The notes beneath the pieces were generated by a model. It was not told the DNA's origin. It did no database searches and was given only the letters and a program-made list of their open reading frames with translations. This document shows positions 5,055 to 19,170 of a stretch of 20,663 nucleotides of DNA, piece by piece; positions within the stretch are counted from its first letter, which is position 1, and every line of letters begins with the position of its first letter. The position numbers and the translations under genes are program-made. Source of the stretch: Actinomycetota bacterium (GTDB taxonomy: Bacteria > Actinomycetota > Thermoleophilia > Solirubrobacterales > 70-9); the NCBI GenBank assembly GCA_018268695.1, contig JAFDWD010001083.1, forward strand, positions 1-20,663, read 5' to 3'.

Positions 5055-5902
5055 CGACGTACTCCTCCTTCGAGGCGTTGTTGTAGGTGGCGGCCGAGGG
5101 TGGTCAGGGAGAGCGAGAAGAGGACGATCGCGACCCCTGGCATCACCTCCAGCCACCAGGCCTGGGTGACGTAGTTGCGCCCGGCGTTCAGCAGCGCTCC
5201 CCACTCCGGCGAGGGCGGCGGGACGCCGAGGCCGAGGAACGCGATGCCCGAGGCCCAGACGATCGACTGGCCGACGCCGAGCGTCATCACGACCACCAGC
5301 GGCCGCATCGCGTTGGGGAAGATGTGCCGCCGCACGATCGAGCCGTAGGGATGCCCGAGCGCTCGCGCGGCCTCGACGTAGCCGGAGTCGCGCACGGCGA
5401 GGACCTGGCCACGCACCATGCGGGCGTAGCCGGGGGCCGTGCCGAGCCCGACCGCGACGATCTCGGTCGTGACACTTGGACCGAAGACGGCGACGAAAAG
5501 GAGGGCGAGCAGCAGGATCGGGAAGGCGAACATCACCTCGACCCCGCGGTTGATCGCCCCGTCGACCCACTTGTTGCCGAGGCCGGCAAGGGTGCCGAAG
5601 ACGATCGCCAGGCTCATCCCGAGCGCGGTGGCGCCGAGCCCGATCAGGAGCGACTCGCGGGCGCCGTAGATGATCCGCGCGTAGAGGTCGCGGCCCGACT
5701 GGTCGGTGCCCATGATGTGCGCCCAGGACGGCGGCTGGAGCGTTTCCTCCAGGTTGACCGCGTAGGGATCGTGGGACGTGAGCAGCCCGGGGACGATCAT
5801 CGCCACCACGAAGAAGGCGACGACGAGGCCCGCGAGCGCGACGCCGGGTCGGATACTGGGGACGGCCAGGCGTCGGGGAGCGGGAATCGGGGTGGCACTC
5901 AT
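5051..5902 (-). CDS. Peptide-type ABC importer permease (DppC-like)
   Basis: A 283-residue inner-membrane permease of the DppC/OppC class. It starts with a short charged N-terminus, then a first membrane helix near residues 23-45, the extracytoplasmic block HIMGTDQSGRDLYAR that is diagnostic of this subunit, and several further hydrophobic helices. The coupling (EAA) loop is visible as YVEAARALGHPYGSIVRRHIFPNAMRPL, and the C-terminal FLGLGVPPPSPEWGALL is conserved in the family. It pairs with the DppB-like subunit encoded immediately upstream; the two overlap as ATGA (start ATG 5902), and its own stop overlaps the ATPase start, fixing the order B-C-DF. Confidence 0.95.
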   Translation of the reverse strand: MSATPIPAPRRLAVPSIRPGVALAGLVVAFFVVAMIVPGLLTSHDPYAVNLEETLQPPSWAHIMGTDQSGRDLYARIIYGARESLLIGLGATALGMSLAIVFGTLAGLGNKWVDGAINRGVEVMFAFPILLLALLFVAVFGPSVTTEIVAVGLGTAPGYARMVRGQVLAVRDSGYVEAARALGHPYGSIVRRHIFPNAMRPLVVVMTLGVGQSIVWASGIAFLGLGVPPPSPEWGALLNAGRNYVTQAWWLEVMPGVAIVLFSLSLTTLGRHLQQRLEGGVRR

Positions 5903-6894
5903 CCGCGCAACCTCGGATCGACGATCGCGTAGGCGATGTCCACCAGGATGTTCGAGATCACGTAGATGAAGGCGACGAGCATCACGACGCCGCTGACCAG
6001 CGGCACGTCACGGTGTTCGGCCGCGCCGACGATCATCTGGCCGATGCCGGGGCGGGCGAAGACCGTCTCGACGATCACCGCGCCCGAGATCAGCGCGCCG
6101 AGGGCCCAGCCGGAGAGCGTGATCGCCGGCAGCACCGAGTGGCGCAGGACGTGCTTGAAACGGACCGCGAGATCACCCATCCCGCGGGCGCGGGCGGAGG
6201 TGACGAAGGGCTGGTCGAGCACCTTCTCGAACTCGTCTCGGGTGACCTGGCCGATGAACCCGCCGAGCGGGATCGCCAGGGTCAGCGCCGGCAGGATCAG
6301 GCCCTCGATCGAGGTCCCGCCCTGCACCGGGAAGATCCTCAGTTCGATGCAGAAGACGACCAGCAGGATCACCCCCAGCCAGTAGTACGGCAGGCCGGCG
6401 CTGAAGATCTCCCACCCCGAGCCGAGGCTGGAGACCACCTTTCTTCGCCTCGACGTCAGCAGGATCGTGCCGAGGGCGATCAACCAGGCGAGGATCAGCG
6501 CCGTGATCGTCAGCACCAGCGTCGGCCCGACCTGTTCGCCGATGATCGTCGTCACCGGCTTGAACTGGGTGTAGGAGTTGCCGAGGTCACCGTGGGCGAG
6601 ACCCTTGATGTAGTCCCAGTACTGGGTCATCACCGGCTGGTCGAGGCCGTATTTGGCTTCGGTCGGCGCCAACTGCGCCGGCGTGTAGGTCTGCTGGTTG
6701 CCGGTCTGCTGGTTCAGGATCAGCGTCGCCTGGTTCCCCGGCAGCAGCTGCTGCACGAAGAAGACGAACGTCGCCGCCGCCCAGAGGACGAAGATCGCCG
6801 CCAGAATGCGCCAGGCGATCCGCTTCAACCAGGGGGCGCGGCGCGGCTTGACGCCGACCGCCGCACCCCCCGTGGGCTCCGCATAGGTGGCCAT
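5899..6894 (-). CDS. Peptide-type ABC importer permease (DppB-like)
   Basis: A 331-residue permease of the DppB/OppB class. After a polar N-terminal 25 residues comes the first helix (about 26-48), then a periplasmic stretch with KYGLDQPVMTQYWDYIKGLAHGDLG, the usual DppB signature, and further helices. The coupling loop reads SARARGMGDLAVRFKHVLRHSVLPA. The C-terminal FVYVISNILVDIAYA-like region and DPRLRG ending are standard. An insertion of glutamine- and threonine-rich residues around 59-74 lengthens the first external loop. Its ATG at 6894 lies 2 bp after the receptor stop, so translation is probably coupled to the receptor gene. Confidence 0.95.
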   Translation of the reverse strand: MATYAEPTGGAAVGVKPRRAPWLKRIAWRILAAIFVLWAAATFVFFVQQLLPGNQATLILNQQTGNQQTYTPAQLAPTEAKYGLDQPVMTQYWDYIKGLAHGDLGNSYTQFKPVTTIIGEQVGPTLVLTITALILAWLIALGTILLTSRRRKVVSSLGSGWEIFSAGLPYYWLGVILLVVFCIELRIFPVQGGTSIEGLILPALTLAIPLGGFIGQVTRDEFEKVLDQPFVTSARARGMGDLAVRFKHVLRHSVLPAITLSGWALGALISGAVIVETVFARPGIGQMIVGAAEHRDVPLVSGVVMLVAFIYVISNILVDIAYAIVDPRLRG

Positions 6895-6896
6895 CG

Positions 6897-8627
6897 TCAG
6901 CTCTGACCCTCGAAGTAGGCGTCAGAGAAGACGGGCTCGCCCTGGGACGCCTCGAGCCAGACGCCTTTCAGGTTCGGTTCCACCGCCAGGGTGGTTTCCT
7001 GGGTGTAGACGCCGACCACTGCCACCTCTTGCTTGGTGACGATTTCCTGGGCCTCACCGTAGTACTTGTCTTTCTCTGCTTCGGTGAAGGAGGCGTTGCC
7101 TTTTTCGATCAGTTCGATCAGGTGCGGGTCGTTGTAGAACGGGTTGTTGTAGGCGTTCGGTTCTTTGCCGTTCCAGGGCCGCCAGGTGATCAGCATCACG
7201 CCGGCCGTGGGCGAGGTCCAGTAACCGATCGTCGCGTCATAGGACGTCGGCTTGGTGTACTCGGCGGCGAACAGTTCGGCAAAGGCCAGCGGTTTCAACT
7301 CGACGTTGAAGCCGACTTCTTTCCACTGCGCCTGCAGGTCCTGGAGAGCCGTCGCGCCTTCGTTGGTGATGATCGAGTTGGCGCCGTAGATCAGCAGGAT
7401 GTCGAGCGGCTTGCCGTCTTTTTCACGAACGCCGTCGCTGTTCTTCACCCAGCCCGCTTGATCAAGCAGCTGTTCCGCTTTCTCGGGGTTGTAGGGCCAG
7501 GTGTCTTCCAGGTTGGGATTGAAGTTCGGCGTCGTCTGGCTGAGCGCGCCGTTGCCGTTGTAGGGCGTCTTGCCTTCGAAGGCGCTGGCGGTCGCCGCTT
7601 CGCGATCGGCACCGTAGGCGAAGGCTTCGCGGACCTTTTTGTCCTTGAAGGGGCCGTTGATCGTGTTCAGGTCGAGCGTGTCGGGACGACCCGGGGTGAT
7701 GTATTGCTGCACTTCGTATTCGGTCTGCGCGGTCGCCCAGTCGGGACCGGGGACGTCGTAGATCACGTTCGACTGCCCGGTGGTCAGCGAGCCGTACCGG
7801 GTGGTCGGGTCGTTGACGTAGCTCCACACCAGCTTGTCGGCATACGCCGGGCCCTGGTGCAAGGCGTTGGCCGGCGCCGAGTTGTAGTTGTCGTTGCGGG
7901 TGAAGGTGATGTTCTGGCCGTGCGTCCACTTCTCGACGATGAACGGGCCGCTGCCGATCGGTTCGTTGCAGACGGTTTCCGCCCCGCCCTTGTAGGTGGA
8001 CGGCGAGAGGATCCCGAAGTAGCCCTGCGAGATCACCGGGAGCAACGGCGAATACGGTTTCGACAGGGTCAGCTGGAAGGTCGTCGGGTCGATGACCTTG
8101 GCCGACTTGAAGTACGCGCCGATGTACGTCTGGACCGTCGGGTTCAGCGTTTCCGGGTTCAGCCAGGCGTAGAAGTTGTCGACGACGGCTTTCGCGTCGA
8201 GCGGTTCGCCGTTGGTGAATTTCACTCCCGGCTTCAGCGTGAAGGTCCAGGTCAGGTGGTCCTTCGAGGTGGTCCATTTGGTCGCCAGCCAGGGGACGAT
8301 CTTGCCGTCTTTGGTCTGCGAGACGAGGCTGTCGGCGAACTGGCGCTCGATGTAGGCCTCCTGGATCCACCCGCCGGTCAGGCACGGGGTTTCCATCTCG
8401 TGCGCGTAGGAGATCGTGCCGCCCGACTTCGGCGTGCTGGTCGGCTTGGTCGCGCCTTCGGTACCGACGATGTTGGTGTCGTTGGTGGCCGCGGCCCCGG
8501 AGTCCCCGGAGGTAGCCCCCGCCCCCGTCGCCGAAGACCCACCGCAGGCGGAGAGCACCAGGGCGAGCACGGCGACAGCGGCGAGGGCAAGGATGGAGGA
8601 GAGTCGTTTCTTGTCTTGTCTATTCAT
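6897..8627 (-). CDS. Solute-binding lipoprotein of a peptide-type ABC importer (family 5)
   Basis: A 576-residue extracellular receptor of solute-binding protein family 5 (DppA/OppA/NikA class). The N-terminus has basic residues, a hydrophobic core and lipobox L25-S26-A27-C28, followed by a Gly/Ser/Ala/Thr-rich linker, so it should be lipid-anchored on the outer face. Family blocks: LATKWTTSKDHLTWTFTLKPGVKFTNGEPLDAKAVVDNF-like region near 110-150, PIGSGPFIVEKW, and YNPEKAEQLLDQAGW. ATG 8627 is chosen over an in-frame TTG at 8639 because GGA sits about 8 bases before the ATG while the TTG has no ribosome site. Base composition is visibly lower in GC than in the neighbouring enzymes, with more A/T-ending codons. 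The ligand is unknown; sulfur-containing peptides or conjugates are an inference from context. Confidence 0.93.
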   Translation of the reverse strand: MNRQDKKRLSSILALAAVAVLALVLSACGGSSATGAGATSGDSGAAATNDTNIVGTEGATKPTSTPKSGGTISYAHEMETPCLTGGWIQEAYIERQFADSLVSQTKDGKIVPWLATKWTTSKDHLTWTFTLKPGVKFTNGEPLDAKAVVDNFYAWLNPETLNPTVQTYIGAYFKSAKVIDPTTFQLTLSKPYSPLLPVISQGYFGILSPSTYKGGAETVCNEPIGSGPFIVEKWTHGQNITFTRNDNYNSAPANALHQGPAYADKLVWSYVNDPTTRYGSLTTGQSNVIYDVPGPDWATAQTEYEVQQYITPGRPDTLDLNTINGPFKDKKVREAFAYGADREAATASAFEGKTPYNGNGALSQTTPNFNPNLEDTWPYNPEKAEQLLDQAGWVKNSDGVREKDGKPLDILLIYGANSIITNEGATALQDLQAQWKEVGFNVELKPLAFAELFAAEYTKPTSYDATIGYWTSPTAGVMLITWRPWNGKEPNAYNNPFYNDPHLIELIEKGNASFTEAEKDKYYGEAQEIVTKQEVAVVGVYTQETTLAVEPNLKGVWLEASQGEPVFSDAYFEGQS

Positions 8628-8712
8628 GTTGGAGTCCAAACTAGAGTTAGTTGACCTAGTAAGTCAGGAATAAGTCCGACGTTTACCCGGTTGGGGATCG
8701 AGAGGCTTTCGC
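8628..8712. promoter_or_regulatory. Spacer before the receptor gene with shared regulatory words
   Basis: This 85-bp gap is A/T-richer than its neighbours. It contains TAGTTGACCTAG (8648-8659), two TAAGTC direct repeats exactly 11 bp apart (8660-8665 and 8671-8676), TCGGACTT on the minus strand (8679-8672) and CGGGTAA on the minus strand (8689-8683). TCGGACTT, CGGGTAA and AGTTGACC also occur in the 18078-18252 spacer. No convincing terminator is seen. A second, co-regulated start for the importer genes is likely but no clean -35/-10 pair stands out. Confidence 0.5.
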
Positions 8713-10092
8713 CTAAACGGTCGCCGTCTCCCGCTGGGCGAAGGCGCCGCGGTACTGCGCCGCCGGGTGACGCTCGGTGAGGCGGTCGTGGCCGAACAGC
8801 TTGTTGCGCAGCGTGCCCTCGCGGTAGCCGTCGGCGGCCAGGCCGCGCTCGCGGAGCGTCGGCATCACGTGCTCGATGAACTCGTCGTAGGAGCCGGGGA
8901 TCGTCGCGTTGATCACGTTGACCCCGTCCACCCCGGCCTCGCGGTACTCCGCCAGGCGGTCGGCGATCTGCTCAGGGGTGCCGACGACGCGGGTGCGGCG
9001 GCTCATCAGGTGCATCACGTCGCGCACCGTCGGGTTGCCGCCGCCGGCGCTCTCGCGCAGCCAACCGAGGATGCCCTGAACGCCTTCGGTGGAGACCGCG
9101 TCGAGGGTGTCGTCGGGGTCGAGCCCGCCGAGGTCGACGCCGATCGCGCCGCCCATGTGGGCGACCATCCCGTCGACGTCGATCTTCTCTTCGAGGTCAC
9201 GCTCGTTGCGCAGCGCCTCCTCCTCGGTCGAGCCGACGACGAACGAGAGGCCCTGGAAGAACTTGATTTCGTCGCGCGTGCGGCCGTGCTTCTCCAGCAG
9301 GTCACGGGTTTCGGTGATCTGCTTGCGGGCGTCCTCGGTCGAGGGGCTCTGGATGAACTGGGCCTCGGCGTGGCGGGCGCAGAAGTCGCGGCCGACCGGC
9401 GAGGAGCCCGCCTGGAAGAGCAGCGGCGTGCGCTGCGGCGAGGGCGAGACGAGGAACGGGCCCTCGCACTTGAAGGGCTTGCCGACGTGGTCGATCGGGT
9501 GGATCTTCGAGGGGTCGGCGTGGAGGCCGGAATCGCGGTCCTGCAAGAGCGCGTCCTCGTCCCACGATCCCTCCCACAGCTTGTAGAGGACTTCGAGGTA
9601 CTCGTCGGCGATCGCGTAACGGGTGTCGTGGGCGGGCATCCCGTCCCAGCCGAGGTTGCGCCAGCCGTTCGGGTTCGCGCCGGTGACGATGTTCCAGGCG
9701 ATCCGCCCCTTGGTGGCGTGGTCGAGCGTCGCCATCTGGCGGGCGAACTGGAACGGCGGCGACTGGGCGAAGCCGAGCGTTACCGCGAGGCCGAGGTTCT
9801 CGGTCGCGGCGGCGAGCGCCGAGATGATCACCATCGGGTCGTTCGACGGGATCTGCAGGCCGAGCTCCTCGTGGAACTCGGGGCCGCCGCGGAAGTCGGT
9901 GTAGAGGCCGATCACGTCGGCGAAGAAGGCCGCGTCGAAGCCACCCGCCTCGAGACGCTGGGCGAGGTCGACCCAGAGATCGAGCTCGTTGTAGCGGATC
10001 TGGTCGCCCTCGGGATCGCGCCAGAGGCCGTGGATGATGTGGGACGGCGTGTTCATCACGAACGCGCAGAAGTTCAGCGGTTGGTCGTTCAT
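8713..10092 (-). CDS. NtaA/DszA-family FMN-dependent monooxygenase (LLM-C)
   Basis: A 459-residue member of the same luciferase-like group as LLM-A and LLM-D but the most divergent of the four. Matching blocks are HIIHGLWRDPEGDQ, GFDAAFFADVIGLY, NDPMVIISALAAATENLG, MATLDHATKGRIAWNIVTG, SPSPQRTPLLFQAGSSPVGRDF and the C-terminal GTLRNKL...HPAAQYRG. The sequence following WNIVTG reads ANPNGWRNLG where paralogues have SYL..AARNLG, so a different pocket is likely. ATG 10092 has AGGAG about 9 bases ahead; open frame beyond it is shadow of the regulator gene. It lies between the LuxR-type regulator (41-bp gap) and the importer receptor, from which an 85-bp motif-rich spacer separates it. Confidence 0.92.
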   Translation of the reverse strand: MNDQPLNFCAFVMNTPSHIIHGLWRDPEGDQIRYNELDLWVDLAQRLEAGGFDAAFFADVIGLYTDFRGGPEFHEELGLQIPSNDPMVIISALAAATENLGLAVTLGFAQSPPFQFARQMATLDHATKGRIAWNIVTGANPNGWRNLGWDGMPAHDTRYAIADEYLEVLYKLWEGSWDEDALLQDRDSGLHADPSKIHPIDHVGKPFKCEGPFLVSPSPQRTPLLFQAGSSPVGRDFCARHAEAQFIQSPSTEDARKQITETRDLLEKHGRTRDEIKFFQGLSFVVGSTEEEALRNERDLEEKIDVDGMVAHMGGAIGVDLGGLDPDDTLDAVSTEGVQGILGWLRESAGGGNPTVRDVMHLMSRRTRVVGTPEQIADRLAEYREAGVDGVNVINATIPGSYDEFIEHVMPTLRERGLAADGYREGTLRNKLFGHDRLTERHPAAQYRGAFAQRETATV

Positions 10093-10133
10093 TGGGGTGC
10101 TCCTGTGTGGGGGGACGGGGAGCCGGGTGAAGG

Positions 10134-10796
10134 TCAGGCGGCCAGGACGGTCGCGGCGCGCTGGGCGGCCTCGGTGCGGTTGCGCACCCCGAGCTTGCGG
10201 TAGAGCGCGGTGGCGCTCTTCTTCACGCTGTCGGGGCCGAGGTGCAGGCGCTCGGCGATCTCGCGGTTGGTCTTGCCGGTGCCGAGGAGGAAGAGAATCT
10301 CGCGCTCGCGGTCGGTCAGCTCGGGGCCGCCGGAGCGGGGCACGGCCGCCTCGGGGAAGTCGAGGACCTCGCCGCCCATCACCGCGGTGCGGACGCCGTC
10401 GACCACGTCCTCGGGAGAGACGCCGGCGGGCAGGAAGCCGACCGCTCCGAGCGACGCGGGCGACGCCCCCGGCGACGTGCGGCAGCGTGAGGTCAGCAGG
10501 ATCTGCACGCCCGGGTGGGCCTCGCGGATCATCGCCGTGATCGAGCCGGCGAAGGGGCCGGTCTGGGAGATGTCGAGGAGCGCGACGTCGGGACGGTGCC
10601 GCCGGGCGAGCGCGACCGATTCCTCGCTCCCCGCCGCCATCAGGCACCGTTCGATCCAGGCCTGCTCGGAGAGCAGCGCCGCGAGCCCGATCCGCGAGGG
10701 CGCGTGTGCGTCGATGACCAGGGCGCGGACCGAGGAGTCCGGCAACGCCTCGGCCTCGATCACCGGGGGAAGCTCAAGTTCGGCCGTGGGAGTCAT
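10134..10796 (-). CDS. LuxR/NarL-type transcription regulator with an atypical receiver
   Basis: A 220-residue protein with a receiver-like N-terminal half and a LuxR-type helix-turn-helix at about 160-218 (ELTDREREILFLLGTGKTNREIAERLHLG, then KLGVRNRTEAAQRA). The phosphorylatable Asp75 in VALLDIS is present and T102-S103 fit strand 4. The second residue of the usual N-terminal acidic pair is Ala30, and the conserved lysine after strand 5 is replaced by Ala124 (GFLPAG). No histidine kinase is encoded nearby. It could therefore respond by a non-canonical route or be an orphan regulator. The start ATG 10796 overlaps the ssuE-like stop (ATGA), with AGGA close before it, so it is inside the operon and probably adjusts it. 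Its target is not shown by the sequence. Confidence 0.85.
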   Translation of the reverse strand: MTPTAELELPPVIEAEALPDSSVRALVIDAHAPSRIGLAALLSEQAWIERCLMAAGSEESVALARRHRPDVALLDISQTGPFAGSITAMIREAHPGVQILLTSRCRTSPGASPASLGAVGFLPAGVSPEDVVDGVRTAVMGGEVLDFPEAAVPRSGGPELTDREREILFLLGTGKTNREIAERLHLGPDSVKKSATALYRKLGVRNRTEAAQRAATVLAA

Positions 10797-11455
10797 GTCC
10801 TGGGTTTGATCGCTTTCGCCGCGAGGGGCCCCGGCTCGAAGCCGGTCTTGGTGCCCGCCAACGCCGCCGCCGCCTCGGCGGTCGCGGCGAAGAGGTCGTC
10901 GAGGGCGGTCGCCGCCCTCTCCCCCGGCACGCCGTCCTCGAAGTCGCCGTTGTTCAGGTAGACGGCGACCGGCATGACGACCGCGCCGAAGAAGGCGAGG
11001 ACGTCGCGCAGGTGCCGTTCGGCACCGAGGAAGTGGTGGTCGGAGGCGCCCATCGCCACCAGTCCCACGACCTTACCCTGGAGCGCCGGGACGGGGGTCA
11101 GGTCGAGCAGGTTCTTCAGCGACCCGGTCAGGGAACCGCGGTAGACCGGCGTCGCCAGGATCAGCGCCGTCGCGTTCTCGAGCGCCGCGATCGTCGCCGC
11201 GGTGTCGTCGTCGAGCTGGTCCGGCGGGGTGCCGTCGGCGAAGCCGAGCCGCAGCGTGCCGAGGTCGATCAGGTCGGCGGTGGTCCCGCGCGCACCGGCC
11301 CGCTCGATCGCCCCCTCCAGCGCCCGGTGCATCCGCCCGGGCGACGTCGTCGAGCCAAGCACCACTCTCATCTGCACGCTTGTCTCGCTATGCGAGACAA
11401 GCGTGCCGGGGTTCGTACCGGGGGGCGTGCCGGGGTTGTTGGTCTCAGGCGGCAA
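10793..11455 (-). CDS. ssuE: SsuE-like NAD(P)H-dependent FMN reductase
   Basis: A flavodoxin-fold FMN reductase. The core starts at MRVVLGSTTSPGR (phosphate-binding loop) and contains ATPVYRGSLTGSLKNLLDLTPVPALQGKVV, very close to E. coli SsuE. It would supply FMNH2 to the operon's monooxygenases. Two starts compete. TTG 11455 has a near-ideal AGGAGGA about 6 bases ahead, overlaps the previous stop and gives 220 residues with a repetitive PGTPPGTNPGT extension. ATG 11371 matches where homologues begin (192 residues) but has no ribosome site and sits 2 bases after a 15-bp hairpin. I chose TTG, with about even odds. By my alignment the position of SsuE Tyr118 is Arg here, so the usual pi-helix tyrosine seems absent. 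Confidence 0.85.
   Translation of the reverse strand: MPPETNNPGTPPGTNPGTLVSHSETSVQMRVVLGSTTSPGRMHRALEGAIERAGARGTTADLIDLGTLRLGFADGTPPDQLDDDTAATIAALENATALILATPVYRGSLTGSLKNLLDLTPVPALQGKVVGLVAMGASDHHFLGAERHLRDVLAFFGAVVMPVAVYLNNGDFEDGVPGERAATALDDLFAATAEAAAALAGTKTGFEPGPLAAKAIKPRT
11374..11406. repeat. Perfect inverted repeat, 15-bp arms with 3-bp loop
   Basis: The arms are GCACGCTTGTCTCGC (11374-11388) and GCGAGACAAGCGTGC (11392-11406) around TAT, with no mismatch. In the minus-strand transcript this would be a very stable hairpin ending 2 bases before ATG 11371 of the ssuE-like gene. There is no T-run after it, so it does not look like an ordinary intrinsic terminator. It could be an operator for a dimeric regulator, a translation-blocking or RNA-processing hairpin, or a remnant of inserted DNA. 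If the TTG start at 11455 is right, it lies inside the coding region, where its codons (CTT, CAT, ACA) are unusually A/T-ending for this window. Confidence 0.8.
11401..11437. repeat. Two 13-bp direct repeats, 24 bp apart
   Basis: GCGTGCCGGGGTT occurs at 11401-11413 and again at 11425-11437 (plus strand), with a related GTACCGGGGG between them. The first copy overlaps the right arm of the inverted repeat. If translated from TTG 11455 the stretch encodes PGTPPGTNPGT, a low-complexity tripeptide-like repeat; if not, it is an untranslated intercistronic repeat. Confidence 0.7.
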
Positions 11456-12596
11456 GCTCGTCCTCCTCGATCTGGATCTCCGAATAGGATCCGCGGTAGA
11501 AAAGGAGCGGCTTGGCGCCGGGCTCGCGGTGCTCGAGATGGTGGGCGAGGCCGATCACGATCTCGTGGTCGCCCGCGGGGTGGATCGCCTCGACCTCGCA
11601 GACGACCGTCGCCAGCGAGCCGGGCAGGACCGGCACGCCGAGGTCGTGCTCGTCGAACTCGACCTCGTGGGCGTGTACCGCGTCTCCCTTGCGCGCGAAG
11701 CGGTCGGAGTGGTGGCGCTGCTCGGCGGCGAGGACGTTGACGGCGAAGCGACGCTCGTCGCGGATCGCGGCGAGGGTCTCGGAGCTGCGTGCCAGGCAGG
11801 CGAGCAGGAGCGGCGGGTCGAGCGAGACCGAGGAGATCGCGTTGGCGGTGGTGCCGACCGGGGCGCCGCCTGGGTCGCGGGCGGTGACGACCGAGACGCC
11901 GGTGGCGAAGTGGCCCATCACGTCGCGCATCGCGCGGCCGGTCGCGGCGAGCTTCGCCGCCGCGGCGGGCTCGGCGGCGCGCCGCCGGCGGGCGACCGCG
12001 GAGACGTCGACGATCGCGAGCCCGTGCCGGGCGGCGAAGAGCTCGAGATCCTCGCCGCGCGCCATGTGCCCGTCGTCGCGCATCACCTGGCAGAGGACTC
12101 CGGCGCCCCCGAGCCCGGCGCCGGCGGTGAGGTCGACCGCTGCCTCGGTGCGCCCGGCCCGCTCCAGCAACCCGCCGAAGCGGGCGCGCAGCGGGAAGAC
12201 GTGGCCGGGCTGGACGAGGTCCGCGGGGGTGCTCGCGGGGTCGGCGACGACGGCGATCGTGCGGGCGCGATCGCCGGCCGAGATGCCGGTCGTGACCCCG
12301 TCGCGGGCCTCGATCGAGACCATCGCCGAGTCGCCCAGCGAGGAGGCGTTGCCGCGATTGCCGATCTGCTCGAGGCCGAGCCGCTCGCAGCGCTCGCCCG
12401 ACAGCGCGACGCAGACGAGGCCGCGCGCCTCGGTCGCCATGAAGTTGACCGCGGCGGCGTCGGCGAACTCGGCGGCGATCAGGACGTCGCCCTCCCCCCG
12501 GCGCTCGGCGTCGTCGCGCAGGAGGACCATGCGGCCCGCGGCGAGCTCCTCGCTCGCCACCGTGACCGGGTCCTTGACCAGATCGAGTCGAGCCAT
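11445..12596 (-). CDS. Degenerate RibB-like domain fused to a flavin reductase
   Basis: A 383-residue two-domain protein. Residues about 5-205 follow 3,4-dihydroxy-2-butanone-4-phosphate synthase (RibB): GVTTGISAGDRA, PGHVFPLRA, TEAAVDL and DDGHMAR are all there. Yet the residues matching E. coli RibB Glu38 and His153 (Mg ligands) and Glu174 are Arg33, Arg149 and Gln170, so riboflavin-precursor synthesis is unlikely. Residues about 222-380 are an FMN-binding split-barrel flavin reductase (MGHFATGVSVVTA, TTANAISSVSLDPPLLL, GDHEIVIG) of the HpaC/DIM6 type. The reductase half would feed FMNH2 to the monooxygenases; the RibB-like half may bind flavin or phosphate or be structural. ATG 12596 overlaps the preceding stop as TGATG, and its own stop overlaps the TTG start of the ssuE-like gene. 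Confidence 0.85.
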   Translation of the reverse strand: MARLDLVKDPVTVASEELAAGRMVLLRDDAERRGEGDVLIAAEFADAAAVNFMATEARGLVCVALSGERCERLGLEQIGNRGNASSLGDSAMVSIEARDGVTTGISAGDRARTIAVVADPASTPADLVQPGHVFPLRARFGGLLERAGRTEAAVDLTAGAGLGGAGVLCQVMRDDGHMARGEDLELFAARHGLAIVDVSAVARRRRAAEPAAAAKLAATGRAMRDVMGHFATGVSVVTARDPGGAPVGTTANAISSVSLDPPLLLACLARSSETLAAIRDERRFAVNVLAAEQRHHSDRFARKGDAVHAHEVEFDEHDLGVPVLPGSLATVVCEVEAIHPAGDHEIVIGLAHHLEHREPGAKPLLFYRGSYSEIQIEEDELAA

Positions 12597-14056
12597 CACG
12601 CCGCCTCCCACTCGTTCGAAGTCGCCGGGACCGGACGCAGCTCGGTCGGCAACGGGATCTCTTCGGTTTCCCCGGTCCGCACGATCTTGCGGGCGACGGC
12701 GCCGGAGTGGTCGCGGATCTCGGTGATCCCGATCGCCTCCCACTCGACCCCCTTGCGCAGGGCGCCGATCGCGAAGAGGCGCTCCGAGGGCGTGCCGTCG
12801 GGGGCGAGGAGCGCCCCGTGCCGGTCGACGTCGAGGCCGAGACCGAGCTCGTCGGGGCGGGCAAGGCCGGCGGACAGGAGGCCCGCCAGGAGCGGCGGCG
12901 CCTGGCGGCGCAGGTCGGTCCCGGCACCGGAGCAGTTGATCACCCGGTCCACCACGACCTCGTCGAGCTCGGTCGCGCCGGGCTTGCGCAGGAAGACGCG
13001 GACGCGGTCGCCGTGCGGCTCCAGGGAGACGATCGAGTTCGACTCGGTGCGGATCCGCCCGGAGGCTTCCAGCGCCTCGAAGCGATCGGCCACCTCGGGC
13101 GCCATGCGGAAGCGATGGACGTCCCAGAGGCGCTGGTAATCGGTCAGGAACCGCCGCTGCTCCTCGGTCGAGAGTGCCTTCCACAGCGCCGGCGTCACCG
13201 GCCGCATCGAGTCGATCACGTCGCGCCAGTCGTCGCCCTGCTGGGAGACGCGGCAGATCTGGGCGAAGATCGCGGCGACCATCGGCTCCAGTCGGCCGGT
13301 CTCGGTCGGGATGTGGAAGCGGCGCAGGTTGGTCAGCGTGCGGCGGTGGCGGCGCGGGACCAGGCCGTGGCGGGAGACGGCGCGGACGCGCGGCCCGGCG
13401 CCTCCCTCGCAAAGGGTCAGCGCGATGTCGACCATCGAGAGGCCGGTGCCGACGACCAGCACCTCGCGGTCGAGGCTCGCCTCCTCCAGCGCTCCCGCCG
13501 CCCAGGGGTCGGCGACGTAGGCGCCGGAGGCCTTCAGCTCGGCCGGGACCTCGATCGGGTCGCCCGCGCCGAGCGGGCCGATCGCCAGGACCACCCGGTC
13601 GGCCCAGATCCGCTCGCCGTCGGCGAGCGAGAGCTCGAGCGGCGCCGGGGCGGCGCCGTGGTGCTCGGCGATCGCGGTCACCTCACCGAAGTGGCGACGC
13701 AGCCGGGCGTCGGCGGCCTCGCGCTCGGCGGTGGCGAGGAGGTCCCGGATGTAGGTCGCGTAGAGACCGCGCGAGAGGAACGCGTCCTCGGCCACCGGTT
13801 CGCCGCGCTCGGCGAGCCACTCGTGGAAGTGCTCCGGGTGCCCGTGGATCGCCCCCATCCGCACCGCCGGCACGTTCAACACGTGGAGCGGGTCGGTCGT
13901 CCCGTAGGCGACACCCGCGCCGAAGCCGCCGGTGCGGTCGATCAGGTCGATCTCGAGCGGACAGTCCTCGCGGTATTCGCGCAGCAGGTGGACCGCGGCG
14001 AGGGCGCCCGCGGCCCCGCCGCCGACGATCGCGACGCGCTGGGTCGGGGCGCTCAC
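12596..14056 (-). CDS. FAD/NAD(P)-binding oxidoreductase of unknown substrate
   Basis: A 486-residue flavoprotein with two dinucleotide-binding motifs: VAIVGGGAAGALAAVHLL at residues 8-25 for FAD, and VLVVGTGLSMVDIALTL near 200-216 for a second nucleotide. Blocks such as GAGVAYGTTDPLHVLNVPA, HPEHFHEWL and VINCSGAGTDLR fit the family of FAD-NAD(P)-binding proteins distantly related to N-hydroxylating monooxygenases (the Pfam NAD_binding_9 type, by recognition). The actual reaction is not known. It starts with GTG at 14056, overlapping the SsuD stop as GTGA, and ends in a TGATG overlap with the RibB-like fusion, so it is tightly embedded between a monooxygenase and the flavin reductase. It may oxygenate a sulfur or nitrogen substrate or act as another electron donor. 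Confidence 0.85.
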   Translation of the reverse strand: MSAPTQRVAIVGGGAAGALAAVHLLREYREDCPLEIDLIDRTGGFGAGVAYGTTDPLHVLNVPAVRMGAIHGHPEHFHEWLAERGEPVAEDAFLSRGLYATYIRDLLATAEREAADARLRRHFGEVTAIAEHHGAAPAPLELSLADGERIWADRVVLAIGPLGAGDPIEVPAELKASGAYVADPWAAGALEEASLDREVLVVGTGLSMVDIALTLCEGGAGPRVRAVSRHGLVPRRHRRTLTNLRRFHIPTETGRLEPMVAAIFAQICRVSQQGDDWRDVIDSMRPVTPALWKALSTEEQRRFLTDYQRLWDVHRFRMAPEVADRFEALEASGRIRTESNSIVSLEPHGDRVRVFLRKPGATELDEVVVDRVINCSGAGTDLRRQAPPLLAGLLSAGLARPDELGLGLDVDRHGALLAPDGTPSERLFAIGALRKGVEWEAIGITEIRDHSGAVARKIVRTGETEEIPLPTELRPVPATSNEWEAA

Positions 14057-15237
14057 CGGGAGGCTCCGACGGCGAAGGGGACGGCGGTTCCCTCGCGCCC
14101 GCCGTCGAAGGCGAGCTCGGCCGGGTCCGGCGGGCGCCAGAGGCCGCGGCGTTCGAGCAGCGGCAGGACACCCTCACCGAACCAGTAGAGCTCCTCCAGG
14201 TGCGGGTAGCCGGAGAGGACGAACTCCTCGATCCCGACCTCGGCGTACTCCTCGATCCGCTCGGCGACCTCGGCGTGGGAGCCGACCAGCGCGGTGCCGG
14301 CACCGCCGCGCCCGAGGCCGACCCCGGCCCAGAGGTTGGGATAGACCTCGAGCCCGTCGCGCGAGCCGCCATGCAGCTCGAGCATCCGCCGTTGGCCCTC
14401 GGACTCCGACTCGCGCAGCTTCGCCTGGACCTGGGCGATCGTCGCCGCCGGGACCGAGTTGAGCAGCCGCTCGGCCTGGGCCCAGGCGGCGGTGGAGTCG
14501 TCGCGGCTGATCGTGTGGAGGCGGATGCCGAAGCGGACCTGGCGGCCCTGCTCGGCCGCCGCGGCGCTGACGCGCTCGATCTTCTCGGCGACCGCGGCGG
14601 GCGGCTCGCCCCAGGTGAGGTAGACATCGACGTGGGCGGCGGCGACCTCGATCCCGGCGGGCGAGGAGCCGCCGAAGTAGATCTGCGGACGCGGGTCGGG
14701 CAGGCGGTGGATGGTCGCGCCCTCGACCCGCAGGTGCTCACCGGCGTAGTCGACGGTCTCGCCGTCCCAGAGGCGTCCGACGATCTCGAGGAACTCGCCG
14801 GTGCGCCGGTAGCGCTCCTCCTTGCCGAGGAAGTCGCCAAAGGCACGCTGTTCGCCCGCGTCGCCGCCGGTCACCACGTTCAGCAGCAGGCGACCGCCGG
14901 AGTGCCACTGGAAGGTCGCCGCCATCTGCGCGGCCAAGGTCGGGCTGACCATGCCGGGGCGGAAGGCGACCAGGAACTTGAGGCGCTCGGAGGCCTCGGC
15001 CAGCATCGCCGTCACGATCCAGGCGTCGTCGCACCACCCGCCGGTCGGGGTCAGCGCGGCCTCGAAGCCGAGGTCCTCGGCGGCCGTCGCGACCCGGGTG
15101 AGGTAGGCGATCGAGGCCTCGCGCAGGCCGCCCGCGGTCCCCGCGGGCGGAGCCTCCCCGGTCTCGACCAGTCCGCGGCCGTCGCCCTGGGTCGGCAGGA
15201 ACCAGTGGAAGTGGAGCTGATCGGAGCGGCTACTCAT
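14053..15237 (-). CDS. ssuD: SsuD-type FMNH2-dependent alkanesulfonate monooxygenase
   Basis: A complete 394-residue SsuD homologue (family about 380). It begins with LHFHWFLPT and contains Cys69 in GGWCDDAW, LLLNVVTGGDAGEQRAFGD near 117-134, YFGGSSPAGIEVAA, LTWGEPPAAV and the catalytic-region motif RFGIRLH with Arg239 and His241. The C-terminal SGYPHLEELYWFGEGVLPLL is also typical. It would desulfonate alkanesulfonates to aldehyde plus sulfite with FMNH2 from the reductases encoded just downstream. ATG 15237 has GAGG about 10 bases ahead and lies 15 bp after the last stop of the broken LLM-B. The missing Ssu-type transporter is replaced here by a peptide-type importer. Its true sulfonate range is unknown. 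Confidence 0.93.
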   Translation of the reverse strand: MSSRSDQLHFHWFLPTQGDGRGLVETGEAPPAGTAGGLREASIAYLTRVATAAEDLGFEAALTPTGGWCDDAWIVTAMLAEASERLKFLVAFRPGMVSPTLAAQMAATFQWHSGGRLLLNVVTGGDAGEQRAFGDFLGKEERYRRTGEFLEIVGRLWDGETVDYAGEHLRVEGATIHRLPDPRPQIYFGGSSPAGIEVAAAHVDVYLTWGEPPAAVAEKIERVSAAAAEQGRQVRFGIRLHTISRDDSTAAWAQAERLLNSVPAATIAQVQAKLRESESEGQRRMLELHGGSRDGLEVYPNLWAGVGLGRGGAGTALVGSHAEVAERIEEYAEVGIEEFVLSGYPHLEELYWFGEGVLPLLERRGLWRPPDPAELAFDGGREGTAVPFAVGASR

Positions 15238-15252: not shown

Positions 15253-16683
15253 TCAGGCCGGCACCGACACGCCGGCGGCGTCGGCACTCGTCGGTTGGTG
15301 GATCGCGCGGCGGTAGCGCGCCGCCGGATGGTCCTCGCGCACCCGCTTGTTGCCCGGGCCGTAGAGCTTCTCGCGCAGCGTCGTGCCCTCGTCGTAGTCC
15401 TGCCAGTAGCGCCCGCGACGCTGCAGCTCGGGCACGACCAGGTCGATGAAGTCCACGAAGGTGCCCGGCGTGACCGCGTAGGCGAGGTTGAAGCCGTCGA
15501 TGTCGGCCTAGTCCATCCACCGCTCGAGCTCGTCGGCGACGGTCCGCGGAGATCCGACGATCGCCGGCCCCATCGCCCCGATGCCGACGAACTTGGCCAC
15601 CTCGTTGGGCGTCCAGTCACGGTCGGGATCGGCCTTGGAGAAGATCTCCAGGGCGAAGCGGGCGGAGTCGGTGTCGACGTACTCGAGCGGCTGGTGCGGG
15701 TCGAGCTGGGACAGGTCTACCCCGGTGACGCCGGCGTAGAAGGCGAGTGCCCCCTCGTAGTCGGTCCAGCTCAGGTACTCCTCGTACTTCGCCTTTGCCT
15801 CGGCGTCGGTCTCCGCGACGACCGTGCAGATCTCGGTGAAGATCTTGACGCTGCGTGGGTCGCGACCCGACTCGCCCGCGATGCGGCGGAGGTCGTCGAC
15901 GTAGCCGCGGAGCGTCGCCGTCGTCGGCGCGACGGTGAAGATCGCCTCGGCGTTGCGGGCGGCGAAGGCCCGGCCCGCGGACGAGGTTCCCGCCTGCCAG
16001 ATCACCGGCGTCCGCTGCGGCGAGGGCTCGACCAGGCCGACGCCGGGGACGTCGAAGAAGCGGCCGTGGTGGTCGATCTGATGGACCTTCGTCGGGTCGG
16101 CGTAGATCTGCGCATCGCGGTCCTCGACCACGGCGTCCTCCTCCCAGGAGCCCTCCCACAGCTGGTAGCAGACGTCGACCACCTCGGCGGCGAGCTCGTA
16201 GCGTTCGTCGTGGGACATCTGGCGGTCCATGCCCAGGTTGCGGGCCGCGCCGTCCAGGTAGGAGGTGACGATGTTCCAGCCGATCCGCCCACCGGTCAGG
16301 TGGTCGAGCGTGCCGAACCGCCGCGCCAGGGCGTAGGGCTGCTCGTAGGTCGCCGAGACGGTGATCCCGAAGCCGAGCTTCTCCGTCACCGCCGCCATCG
16401 CCGAGACCGGCACGACCGGGTCGTGCACGGGGATCTGCATCGCCCGGCGGATCGAGGCGTCGCCCGAACCCTGGTAGGTGTCGTAGATGCCGAGCACGTC
16501 GGCGATGAAGAGCGAGTCGAACTTACCGCGCTCGAGCAGCCGCGCCAGCTCGGTCCAGTACGCCAGGTCCTTGTAGCGGACCGACTGGTCATCCGACCGC
16601 GCCCAGAGCCCGGGGCTCTGGTGCATGATGCAGCTCATGTCGAAGGCGTTCACGGCGATCCGCTTCGGCGCCGCCGCCGTCAT
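15253..16683 (-). pseudogene. NtaA/DszA-family monooxygenase (LLM-B) interrupted by an in-frame TAG
   Basis: Reading from ATG 16683 gives 391 residues of a clear LLM-A paralogue (NAFDMSCIMHQSPGLW, LLERGKFDSLFIADVLGIYDTY, GGRIGWNIVTSYLDGAARNLG, EPSPQRTPVIWQAGTSSAGR) up to WMD, then TAG at 15508-15510. The same frame continues without a shift through ADIDGFNLAYAVTPGTF, VPELQRRG, LREKL and HPAARYRR to TGA at 15253. At the TAG position LLM-A has tyrosine, TAC, in WIDYSDVDGFN, so a single C-to-G change explains it. The truncated protein lacks about 84 residues, including the last part of the barrel, and is probably inactive unless the stop is read through. GGGAG precedes the start, which overlaps the LLM-A stop as ATGA. 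A sequencing error is also possible. Confidence 0.85.
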
Positions 16684-18077
16684 GCCGCCGCTCCCGTCGC
16701 GACCGGCTCGGCGAGCCGACGGTAGGAGGCTCCCGGGTGACTCTCGGGGAGGCGGGCGTCGCGGTCGAAGAGCTTCTCCCTGAGGGTGCCGGGGCGGTAC
16801 TCGGTCGGTGCGACGCCGCGGCGCTGCAGCTCCGGGATGAGGTGCTCGACCGCGTCGACGAAGGTGCCCGGGGTGATCGCGTAGGCGAGGTTGAAGCCGT
16901 CGACGTCCGAGTAGTCGATCCACTCCTGCATGTGGTCGGCGACTTCGCCGGGATCGCCGACGACGCGCGGCCCGAGGCCGCCGATCACGCCCCAGCGGGC
17001 GATGTCGCGGACGGTCCACTCACCGCCCTCGGGGTCGGCCTGCTGGAAGGCGGCGACGGCGGAGTGGATCGCGTTCGACTCTACCTCGCCGATCGGGTCG
17101 TCGAGGTCATACTCGGCGAGGTCGACGCCCATCCAGCCGGAGAAGAGGGTCAGCGCGGCCTCGTCGTCGCCGTAGCGCTCGAGGTCGTCGTGCTTCGCCC
17201 AGGCCTTCGCCTTGGTCTCGTCGGTGATCGCGGTGAGCAGGTTGTAGATGCGGGCGTCGTAGGGATCGCGTCCGGCCTCGGCCATGCGGCGGCGGATGTC
17301 GCCGACGGTCTCCTTGAGGATCTCCTTGGTCGGGGCGGCGGTGAAGATCGCCTCGGCGTGCTCGGCGGCGAACTGGCGTCCACGGGAGGAGGCGCCCGCC
17401 TGGTAGATGACCGGGGAGCGCTGCGGGCTCGGCTCGCAGAGGTGGATGCCCGGGACCTTGAAGTACTCGCCCTCGTGCTCGATCCCGTGGACCTTCGAGG
17501 GGTCGGTGAAGATGCCGGCGTCGCGGTCGCGGAGCACGGCGCCGTCCTCCCAGCTGCCCTCCCAGAGCTTGTAACAGACCTCGAGGTACTCGTCGGCGAC
17601 GTCGTAGCGGTTGTCGTGGTTCAGCTGGTCGGCCTCCCCCATGTTCTCGGCGCCGCTCTTCAGGTAGGAGGTGACGACGTTCCAGCCGACGCGGCCCTCG
17701 GTCAGATGGTCGAGGGTCGACATGCGGCGGGCGAAGGGGTAGGGGTGCTCGAAGGAGATCGAGGCGGTGAGGCCGAAGCCGAGGCCCTCGGTCACCGCGG
17801 CCATCGCCGAGATCAGCATCGCCGGGTCGTTGACCGGGACCTGCGTCGCGTGGCGGACCGTCGAGTCGCGGCTGCCGCCGTAGACGTCGTAGATGCCCAG
17901 CACGTCGGCGATGAAGAGCCCGTCGAAGCGCCCCCGCTCCAGGAGTTGCGCCAGATCGGTCCAGTAGGACAGCTTGCGGTAGTCGGCGGCGTGGTCGTCG
18001 GGATGCCGCCAGAGGCCGGGCGACTGGTGGGCGACGCAGTTCATGTCGAAGGCGTTCAGGCGGATCGGTCTGGGCAT
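16680..18077 (-). CDS. NtaA/SnaA/DszA-family FMN-dependent monooxygenase (LLM-A), first gene of the operon
   Basis: A 465-residue luciferase-like monooxygenase: LNAFDMNCVAHQSPGLW, LLERGRFDGLFIADVLGIYDVYGG, NDPAMLISAMAAVTEGLGF, STLDHLTEGRVGWNVVTSYL, CEPSPQRSPVIYQAGASSRGR and the C-terminal GTLREKL..HPGASYRR. It is closest in the window to the broken LLM-B next to it, pointing to a tandem duplication. I start it at ATG 18077, which matches the MPR start of LLM-D and has AAAG about 8 bases ahead; an in-frame ATG at 18092 and a TTG at 18110 are possible but lack a ribosome site. It is the promoter-proximal gene, so the product should be abundant. The reaction is probably oxygenation of an organosulfur compound with FMNH2, by context. 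Confidence 0.92.
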   Translation of the reverse strand: MPRPIRLNAFDMNCVAHQSPGLWRHPDDHAADYRKLSYWTDLAQLLERGRFDGLFIADVLGIYDVYGGSRDSTVRHATQVPVNDPAMLISAMAAVTEGLGFGLTASISFEHPYPFARRMSTLDHLTEGRVGWNVVTSYLKSGAENMGEADQLNHDNRYDVADEYLEVCYKLWEGSWEDGAVLRDRDAGIFTDPSKVHGIEHEGEYFKVPGIHLCEPSPQRSPVIYQAGASSRGRQFAAEHAEAIFTAAPTKEILKETVGDIRRRMAEAGRDPYDARIYNLLTAITDETKAKAWAKHDDLERYGDDEAALTLFSGWMGVDLAEYDLDDPIGEVESNAIHSAVAAFQQADPEGGEWTVRDIARWGVIGGLGPRVVGDPGEVADHMQEWIDYSDVDGFNLAYAITPGTFVDAVEHLIPELQRRGVAPTEYRPGTLREKLFDRDARLPESHPGASYRRLAEPVATGAAA

Positions 18078-18130
18078 CTCGGCAGCTTTCATTACTAAGT
18101 TGATCGACAAAGCTTTCTTACGGGAAGCGC

Positions 18131-18159
18131 ATGATGCAGGTGCGGTTCCGTGCCGTCAA
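18131..18159 (-). promoter_or_regulatory. Predicted promoter of the sulfur operon
   Basis: On the minus strand TTGACG (18159-18154) and CATCAT (18136-18131) are separated by 17 bp, a good fit to the housekeeping sigma-factor consensus. Transcription would start near 18124, about 46 bases before ATG 18077. The T-N11-A dyad is centred about 51 bp upstream of that start, where LysR-type activators often act. No experiment is implied; this is consensus matching. Confidence 0.55.
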
Positions 18160-18168
18160 ATCGGACTT

Positions 18169-18181
18169 TCGGGTAACCCGA
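18169..18181. promoter_or_regulatory. LysR-type T-N11-A dyad
   Basis: TCGGGTAACCCGA is a perfect palindrome around a central A and fits the T-N11-A box of LysR-type regulators exactly. It lies between the divergent operon and the LysR-type gene, upstream of the predicted operon promoter, and is the best candidate binding site for that regulator. Confidence 0.6.
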
Positions 18182-18252
18182 TAGCATTTCCCTACCAAGT
18201 CGGTCAACTTTGCCGAAATGGTATGACTCCGAGTCTCCTTCACCCCCAGCCC

Positions 18253-19170
18253 ATGCGCATCGAGCAACTCGAATACGCCACCGCCGTCGCCCGCTTCGGC
18301 TCCTTCCGCCGGGCGGCCGAGGCCCTGCACATCTCCCAGCCCGCGCTGAGCGAGAACGTGCGGCGGCTGGAGCGGGAGCTCGGGGTCGAGATCCTCGACC
18401 GCCGCCGCTCCGGCGCGACCGTGGGCGAGCACGGGCGCGAGCTTCTCCCCCACATGCTCGCCGTGATCGAGGCCGCCGACGACCTCAAGCGCGCCGCCGA
18501 CGATAGCCGTGCGCTCTCCCGCACCGTGCGCGTCGGCACCGTCACCGCGGCCACCGTCCCGCTGCTCGCCCCCACCATCCACGCCTTCCGCGACACCCAC
18601 TCCTCGACCCAGGTGGAGATCCTCACCGCCCAGCAGACCGGCATCCACCGGGCGCTCCTGGAGGGCTCGATGGACCTCGGCCTCGTCAACTACCTGGAAG
18701 GCGACGACATGCCGCCCGAGTTCGAGTCGACCGAGCTCCTTCGCGGCCACCCGGTCGTCTGCCTCCGCCCCGACGACGAGCTGGCGAGCCGTACCGCGGT
18801 GCGCACCGCCGACCTCTGGGAGCGCCCCCTGATCGCGATGCGCCCGGGCTACGTCATGCACCGCTACGTCACCCGCCTCCTCGACGGCCGCGAGCCGACA
18901 GCCTCCTACTCCGCCGACGGCGCCGAGATGGGCAAGCTGATGGTCGCCGCCGGCCTCGGCGTCGCCGTCCTCCCCGACTACTCCGTGATCGGCGACCCGC
19001 TCGAGCGCGCCGGCGAGATCACCCACCGCCCCCTCGAGGAAGACGGCACCGGCGTCCTCCTCGTCCTCCAACGCCGCCGCTCCTCCCCCGCCCACAACGC
19101 GATCTCCGACCTCCACGACCTCTTCGTGGCCGAAGCCGAGCGGGCGCGGGAGGCGAAAGCCGCCGCGTAG
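18253..19170 (+). CDS. LysR-type transcription regulator, divergent from the sulfur operon
   Basis: A 305-residue LysR-family regulator. The N-terminal winged helix-turn-helix spans about residues 1-60 (MRIEQLEYATAVARFGSFRRAAEALHISQPALS, then VRRLERELGVEILDR), followed by a linker helix and a periplasmic-binding-like effector domain from about 85 to 295 with motifs such as LLEGSMDLGLVNY and VAAGLGVAVLPDYSV. ATG 18253 is chosen because homologues begin at this point; ATG 18223 is in frame and possible, and neither has a clear ribosome site. Divergent placement next to a T-N11-A dyad argues that it controls the monooxygenase operon, in the manner of CysB/Cbl-type sulfur regulators, though the effector (perhaps sulfate, APS or the substrate) is unknown. 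Confidence 0.9.
   Translation: MRIEQLEYATAVARFGSFRRAAEALHISQPALSENVRRLERELGVEILDRRRSGATVGEHGRELLPHMLAVIEAADDLKRAADDSRALSRTVRVGTVTAATVPLLAPTIHAFRDTHSSTQVEILTAQQTGIHRALLEGSMDLGLVNYLEGDDMPPEFESTELLRGHPVVCLRPDDELASRTAVRTADLWERPLIAMRPGYVMHRYVTRLLDGREPTASYSADGAEMGKLMVAAGLGVAVLPDYSVIGDPLERAGEITHRPLEEDGTGVLLVLQRRRSSPAHNAISDLHDLFVAEAERAREAKAAA

Follow-up and report, generated by a model that had tools for sequence, protein, structure and literature searches.

Why would a soil actinobacterium retain, as one half of a flavin reductase protein, a RibB domain stripped of its catalytic residues, and encode it in an operon that appears to be devoted to sulfur scavenging? The question is raised by the gene for protein P0002 in a stretch of 20,663 nucleotides (the window) from an Actinomycetota bacterium of the Solirubrobacterales (assembly GCA_018268695.1, contig JAFDWD010001083.1). 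A preliminary description had proposed that the domain no longer makes the riboflavin precursor and was kept for another role. The explanation that we favor, at a probability of roughly 55%, is that P0002 contains a catalytically dead RibB, which would have been fused while active, would have decayed repeatedly in the family, and would have been kept as a dimerisation or scaffold module of a reductase that serves monooxygenases.

The fusion gene, delimited by its open reading frame, Pfam matches and relatives, occupies 11445..12596 on the reverse strand and encodes 383 amino acids between an ATG start, which overlaps the stop of the upstream gene by one base, and a TGA stop; its 3' end falls within the reading frame of the next gene. 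Residues 14-202 (11991..12557) match the Pfam family of 3,4-dihydroxy-2-butanone 4-phosphate (DHBP) synthase (PF00926) at 217 bits (cut-off 26.4), and residues 227-374 (11475..11918) match Flavin_Reduct (PF01613) at 136.1 bits (cut-off 27), in agreement with the RibB sequence of about 200 residues joined to a flavin reductase that had been described. Between them lies a poorly conserved linker, residues 203-226 (11919..11990), whose column entropy was measured over residues 203-222. Both family profiles and folds identify the N-terminal domain as RibB and the C-terminal domain as a short-chain PF01613 flavin reductase, the predicted structure being a monomer model with a predicted template modelling score (pTM) of 0.66. 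The blocks GHVFPLRA, GVTTGIS and DDGHMAR (DDGxMAR in the earlier account) are present, and the NCBI ribB model TIGR00506 still accepts the protein (183.7 bits vs a cut-off of 177.45). The C-terminal domain falls below the NCBIfam equivalog cut-offs for the reductases HsaB (143.3 vs 230) and FerA (140.4 vs 260), and it is predicted to be an active flavin reductase. A Pfam scan of P0002 found no RibA domain (PF00925), the C-terminal half being PF01613, so the protein does not belong with RibBA or RibBX.

The residues that were exchanged in the RibB domain were mapped with HMMER alignments to RibBs of solved structure and a MAFFT alignment to E. coli RibB. E. coli E38, a ligand of both metals, and N39 correspond to R33 and G34 (codons CGG and GGG at 12495..12500, reverse strand, as are the codons that follow), H153, a ligand of metal M1, corresponds to R149 (CGC at 12150..12152), and E174 corresponds to Q170 (CAG at 12087..12089). 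The aligned blocks read DDAERRGEGD against DDEDRENEGD, ERAGRTE against TRGGHTE, and VLCQV against VLCEL, so that the three exchanges first noticed are confirmed by alignments and codons alike and the change at N39 is additional. Because all 120 of the best-listed relatives, 79-91% identical to P0002, have Arg at the H153 position and Gln at the E174 position, R149 and Q170 are not a product of chance or of assembly error.

The significance of these positions differs. In V. cholerae RibB, Glu-39 (the equivalent of E38) ligates both M1 and M2, and its replacement abolishes the activity of both the M. jannaschii and the V. cholerae enzyme (PMC5228156; this and the other articles are cited for those portions of their text that were available). 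All 34 canonical RibB rows (33 genomic, mostly from the same order, plus E. coli) carry both E38 and E174, a count that is partly a matter of choice, since two degenerate RibB-like sequences and one truncated one had been set aside beforehand and three further degenerate or partial RibB-like frames were never part of the set. With R33 and Q170, P0002 lacks both catalytic or metal-binding glutamates of a DHBP synthase. The case of H153 is weaker. Its V. cholerae counterpart, His-154, contacts M1 and the substrate phosphate (PMC5228156), but the position is Gln in 23 of the 34 canonical rows, so its change says little by itself and was rejected as proof of inactivity. Fourteen of these 23 rows come from genomes with a single RibB match at 1e-30, genomes whose completeness is not given and in which a single match is no proof of a single copy. 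Among RibBs of the order outside the fusions, Gln replaces His153 at 23 of 23 loci (L113-L135), and the metal-ligand His is thus not universal. Of the two residues on which the preliminary description had leaned, Glu38 keeps its weight and His153 loses most of it. Since E38, N39 and E174 are changed together, with Arg in addition where His or Gln is usual, DHBP synthesis is very unlikely, and we strongly infer that the RibB domain of P0002 has lost this activity.

The fusion family was surveyed in 243 proteins, the window protein and 242 relatives, assembled from the best 120 matches of each of three protein searches after removal of overlaps; the first search gave 7976 matches in all, and the 243 are a sample of the fusions and not their total. 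Classified by the residues at E38/H153/E174, they comprise RRQ (76), GRQ (32), QRQ (31), ARQ (21), GRE (11), KHQ (9), EHE (8), EQT (8) and HRQ (7), with rarer types for the rest. Both E38 and E174 are missing in 205 of them and at least one is missing in 235. The E38 position, residue 33 of P0002, is R in 79, G in 48, Q in 34, A in 24, E in 18, K in 12, H in 8 and M in 5, besides others. The eight proteins that retain Glu/His/Glu (P0198-P0202 and P0204-P0206) stand on branches other than that of P0002 and share 56-62% identity with P0123, which served as the query in one search; within this set N39 is replaced by Ser in P0199 and P0205 and by Asp in P0201. Fusions with the full triad, which the preliminary description had named as evidence against its reading, thus exist, and not every RibB-reductase fusion belongs among the pseudoenzymes.

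This range of types bears on whether the RibB domain could still produce DHBP, weakly or through a rearranged metal site, or could carry out an altered reaction. TIGR00506 still accepts P0002, and 49 of 65 positions that are near-invariant in canonical RibBs are retained, with 16 lost or loosened, in the 180 fusions defined by Arg at H153 and Gln at E174 (the R/Q group, in which R149 and Q170 are fixed by definition). The frequent Gln at H153 in canonical rows also indicates that some of the site accepts exchanges more readily than had been assumed. Against this, both glutamates are intact in the canonical rows, to the extent that their selection allows, and in all eight intact fusions, the E38 mutants of two species are dead, and at least eight different residues occur at position 38, unlike a site under catalytic selection, all of which makes residual or altered catalysis improbable.

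A tree of 53 full-length rows, built with the catalytic columns removed, suggests how often the residues were lost. The EHE rows take two separate starred positions, six beside DHE rows and two beside AHE rows, and the grouping of all non-intact rows as a single clade was rejected by the approximately unbiased (AU) test (p-AU 3e-96), for a group that was named after the alignment had been inspected. A single loss without regain was rejected on this basis. At least four changes at E38 and at least five at E174 are needed on this tree, and if EHE was never regained there are six decayed branches: QHQ/KHQ, DHE, KRE/GRE, AHE, EQT and a main clade of 28 rows that includes the window protein (support 100/100). 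Several of the joining branches are middling in support (e.g., 87/85, 84/76 and 90/66), and the DHE rows, with Asp for Glu, and the EQT rows, which keep E38, may not be fully dead. Six losses are therefore the upper reading of the tree and more than one loss the safe reading. The EHE fusions point to the ancestral state, and it seems that a fusion with a working RibB lost this activity on several occasions.

Each of the two halves was also placed in a quick tree. A horizontal origin of the RibB half was not supported, as this half clusters with the RibBs of its own order in a tree with open forks and long branches, in which the fused rows require three changes, with P0192 falling outside the fusions and the unfused L094 among them. 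L094 is a RibB-like gene of 226 amino acids in genome G005 (L139:8958-9635) with Glu at H153, Gly at E174 and Ser at D42. A separate flavin reductase gene (L139:6439-6933) precedes it by about 2 kb, with genes for carbon monoxide dehydrogenase-like flavin adenine dinucleotide (FAD) and iron-sulfur subunits in between. For the reductase half, constraining all fused rows to one group gave a better score than the free tree, and this constraint was not rejected (p-AU 0.86). In viral contigs, seven stretches fit the search pattern and none was a relative.

Relatives that carry the fusion were examined for another source of the riboflavin precursor. The fusion was found on five genome contigs (L001-L005, among 80 loci retained from 109 confirmed ones), labelled Solirubrobacterales in two cases, Actinomycetota in two and "Proteobacteria" in one, a metagenome-assembled genome that we take to be mis-binned or mis-named. 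Each of the five genomes has at least one additional RibB with intact residues, the separate complete RibB that had been called for, here in relatives, and RibA was confirmed beside an intact RibB in four of them, the RibA scan having covered all except G003. Up to seven PF00926 matches per genome occur in these relatives, fragments included, and strongly degenerate RibB- or RibBA-like genes are also present (L101:5373-6038 in G004, L102:8670-9863 in G002 and L103:8791-11376 in G005). Fused matches came from 7 of the 232 genomes of the order, judged by the span of the matches listed. Samples of the class and of the phylum yielded them in 6 of 399 and 1 of 396 genomes, respectively; these two samples were searched at E <= 1e-72 and overlap with that of the order.

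A domain without catalytic function might simply be a passive relic, carried along through its linkage to the reductase within a single gene, and the drift of the active site on several branches is what such a relic would show. The pattern of selection is different. Mean column entropy over the 180 R/Q rows is 0.570 bits for RibB and 0.575 bits for the reductase, compared with 1.44 bits for the linker, and the other 63 rows give 1.29, 1.22 and 2.86 bits. The ratio of nonsynonymous to synonymous substitution (NG86 method, ten pairs of five genes) spans 0.14-0.41 in the RibB domain and 0.16-0.34 in the reductase domain, well below 1 in every pair. Both measures being similar, the dead RibB domain is about as constrained as the reductase. 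A comparison of 49 fused reductase domains with 31 unfused reductases, a modest sample, gave no clear case in which RibB had been shed. A functionless relic is thus the least probable of the readings considered here, and the equal purifying selection on both halves upholds the claim that the domain was kept for some role.

What this role might be is suggested by the residues that remain. T107, G108, S110, D113 and H136 do not vary across five residue groups, which together hold 232 of the 243 rows, apart from a single row with a gap, and T107 to S110 and D113 have been described for a loop that closes the active site of the partner monomer (PMC5228156). In the R/Q group much of the pocket is kept as well, with D33 in 178 of 180 rows, R37 in 173, E40 in 179, D42 in 180, C67 in 176, H136 in 180 and R150 in 179 (E. 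coli numbering), and N39 is Gly in all 180. The old ribulose 5-phosphate (Ru5P) pocket could therefore have become a metal-free sensor of anions, sugar phosphates or flavin phosphates that regulates the reductase, with Arg at H153 and the loss of E38 offsetting the charge of the missing metals; in simulations of the V. cholerae enzyme, Arg-38 and protonated His-154 touch the Ru5P phosphate (PMC5228156). When near-copies are down-weighted, however, R37, C67 and T154 are loose even in the R/Q group, and the conservation of the retained pocket sites does not clearly exceed that of the remaining positions (0.47 vs 0.80 bits, permutation P 0.054). The constancy of R149 and Q170 follows from how the group was defined, and D33, R37 or T154 is altered in other decayed groups; phosphate binding as a role common to all fusions was not supported. 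A sensor is accordingly an unlikely explanation; the conservation pattern leans toward a structural over a ligand role, the latter being conceivable in the main group. Among the roles named in the preliminary description, flavin or phosphate binding, docking of monooxygenases and regulation are not separated by these data, and phosphate binding lacks support for the family as a whole.

In the explanation that we favor, the fusion of a working RibB with a flavin reductase would have taken place in the order to which the relative G003 belongs (Solirubrobacterales), probably in a context in which synthesis of the flavin precursor and flavin reduction both served flavin-dependent monooxygenases. 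The RibB chemistry would have been dispensable because RibB is present elsewhere in the cell, and would have been lost in several lineages, and the fold would have been retained as a RibB-type dimerisation or scaffold module because the reductase had come to depend on it. The C-terminal domain would reduce flavin with NAD(P)H and hand it over to the monooxygenases encoded alongside. A stronger version, which we regard as doubtful, has RibB disarmed independently in about six lineages and its fold selected as an obligate assembly or sensing module, the fusions forming a series from bifunctional enzyme to entrenched pseudoenzyme.

Several observations weigh against the scaffold explanation. The case is made from sequence and the monomer model, and the RibB elsewhere in the cell is known from the genomes of relatives. 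The invariant residues are invariant or nearly so in canonical RibBs too, which means that dimerisation is not singled out, and the retention of most substrate-pocket residues in the R/Q group exceeds what a pure scaffold would need. In the 63 rows outside that group, the conservation of RibB falls slightly short of that of the reductase. The free quick reductase tree split the fused reductase domains by two changes, and in building it P0192 was dropped and the unfused L009 and L056 were badly placed.

The genomic context is consistent with a supply of reduced flavin to monooxygenases. On the reverse strand, a FAD/NAD(P)-binding oxidoreductase gene (PF13454, 12596..14056) lies directly upstream of the fusion gene and shares one base with it, and the frame of an NADPH-dependent flavin mononucleotide (FMN) reductase (PF03358, 10793..11455), MsuE/SsuE-like although under those cut-offs, overlaps its end. 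Beyond these, on the same strand, are genes for an SsuD-like alkanesulfonate monooxygenase (14053..15237, under the equivalog cut-off), a LuxR-type regulator (10134..10796), a peptide-type ATP-binding cassette transporter (3339..8639: ATPase 3339-5033, permeases 5051-5902 and 5899-6894, binding protein 6897-8639), an SfnB family sulfur-acquisition oxidoreductase (2140..3528, start uncertain; 441.7 bits, cut-off 430.9) and four FMN-dependent monooxygenases of the NtaA/DmoA family (738..2126; 8713..10128, start uncertain; 15508..16680, start approximate; 16680..18110). The third of these is shortened by an in-frame TAG at 15508-15510, about 80 codons ahead of the likely gene end, with the C-terminal sequence of the family continuing in frame, and the TAG is either a nonsense mutation or a sequencing error. 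A divergent LysR regulator gene (18106..19170, forward strand, start inside this frame) is followed by a C-5 cytosine DNA methylase gene (PF00145, 19201-20241, forward strand), a relative of which adjoins LysR in L002 and L005 as well. An Rfam scan of the window gave no match at gathering scores, and hence no FMN riboswitch at that threshold.

Four of the five loci L001-L005 share a gene order in which the fusion stands between the FAD/NAD(P) oxidoreductase and the FMN reductase; no FMN reductase was detected behind the fusion in L005. The fusion frame of that locus (L005:7907-10975) is open for 1023 codons and its homology ends before the C-terminus, at query residue 358, an anomaly attributable to either a frameshift or a local deletion. 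As for more distant fusions, L136 lies among SfnB-like, NtaA-like and LysR genes, and fusions of the GGRHSxTDGD type (L137:9163-10323 and L138:1716-2867, from two genomes) lie directly behind rpoC and ahead of an FMO-like monooxygenase gene. The common thread of the eight fusion loci is flavin-dependent monooxygenases and not sulfur as such. Sulfur scavenging, proposed earlier, is a likely role for the operon of the window, judging by its gene families, but the distant fusions adjoin other monooxygenases.

Each part of this arrangement has precedents. The HsaB, FerA and HpaC-type PF01613 reductases, which the C-terminal domain resembles in sequence and fold, are stand-alone proteins. In RibBX the second domain is presumably a relic of RibA. 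RibBX from A. baumannii (6mnz), the best structural match of the RibB half of P0002, likewise joins RibB to a second domain, but it is titled DHBP synthase, so that RibB is presumably its working half. Another close parallel is plant RIBA3, in which DHBP synthase activity was measured and found absent (PMC3509567). It too is a two-domain protein with exchanged essential RibB residues, a working other half and a loss common to its whole clade, but its partner is GTP cyclohydrolase II in place of a flavin reductase, and its loss occurred early in vascular plants (PMC3509567), compared with more than one loss in actinobacteria here. A separate ribB beside flavin reductase genes, on plasmids and in the ipp cluster (PMC12442392), places the same two functions next to each other but in two genes, with flavin-dependent monooxygenase genes also alongside in the ipp cluster and in L083; the catalytic residues are intact in the three plasmid loci checked (L081-L083) of 40 listed. 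No RibB-flavin reductase fusion, active or dead, was found in the open literature, most subscription journals lying outside the search, and the available portions of PMC10958861 and PMC2922099 have a different subject. Dead RibB halves were thus already known, and their fusion to a flavin reductase is apparently undescribed in the open literature, as had been supposed.

For the organisms concerned, the finding has a practical side. The relatives of P0002 that are named in sources are nearly always labelled DHBP synthase, and because of this naming and the acceptance of P0002 by the NCBI ribB model, flavin pathways may be over-annotated in genomes of this kind. For the family, the presence of intact, half-decayed and fully decayed fusions in one set would allow the timing and the causes of the shift from a catalyst to a structural or regulatory domain to be studied, along with whether a flavin reductase comes to depend on the domain fused to it.
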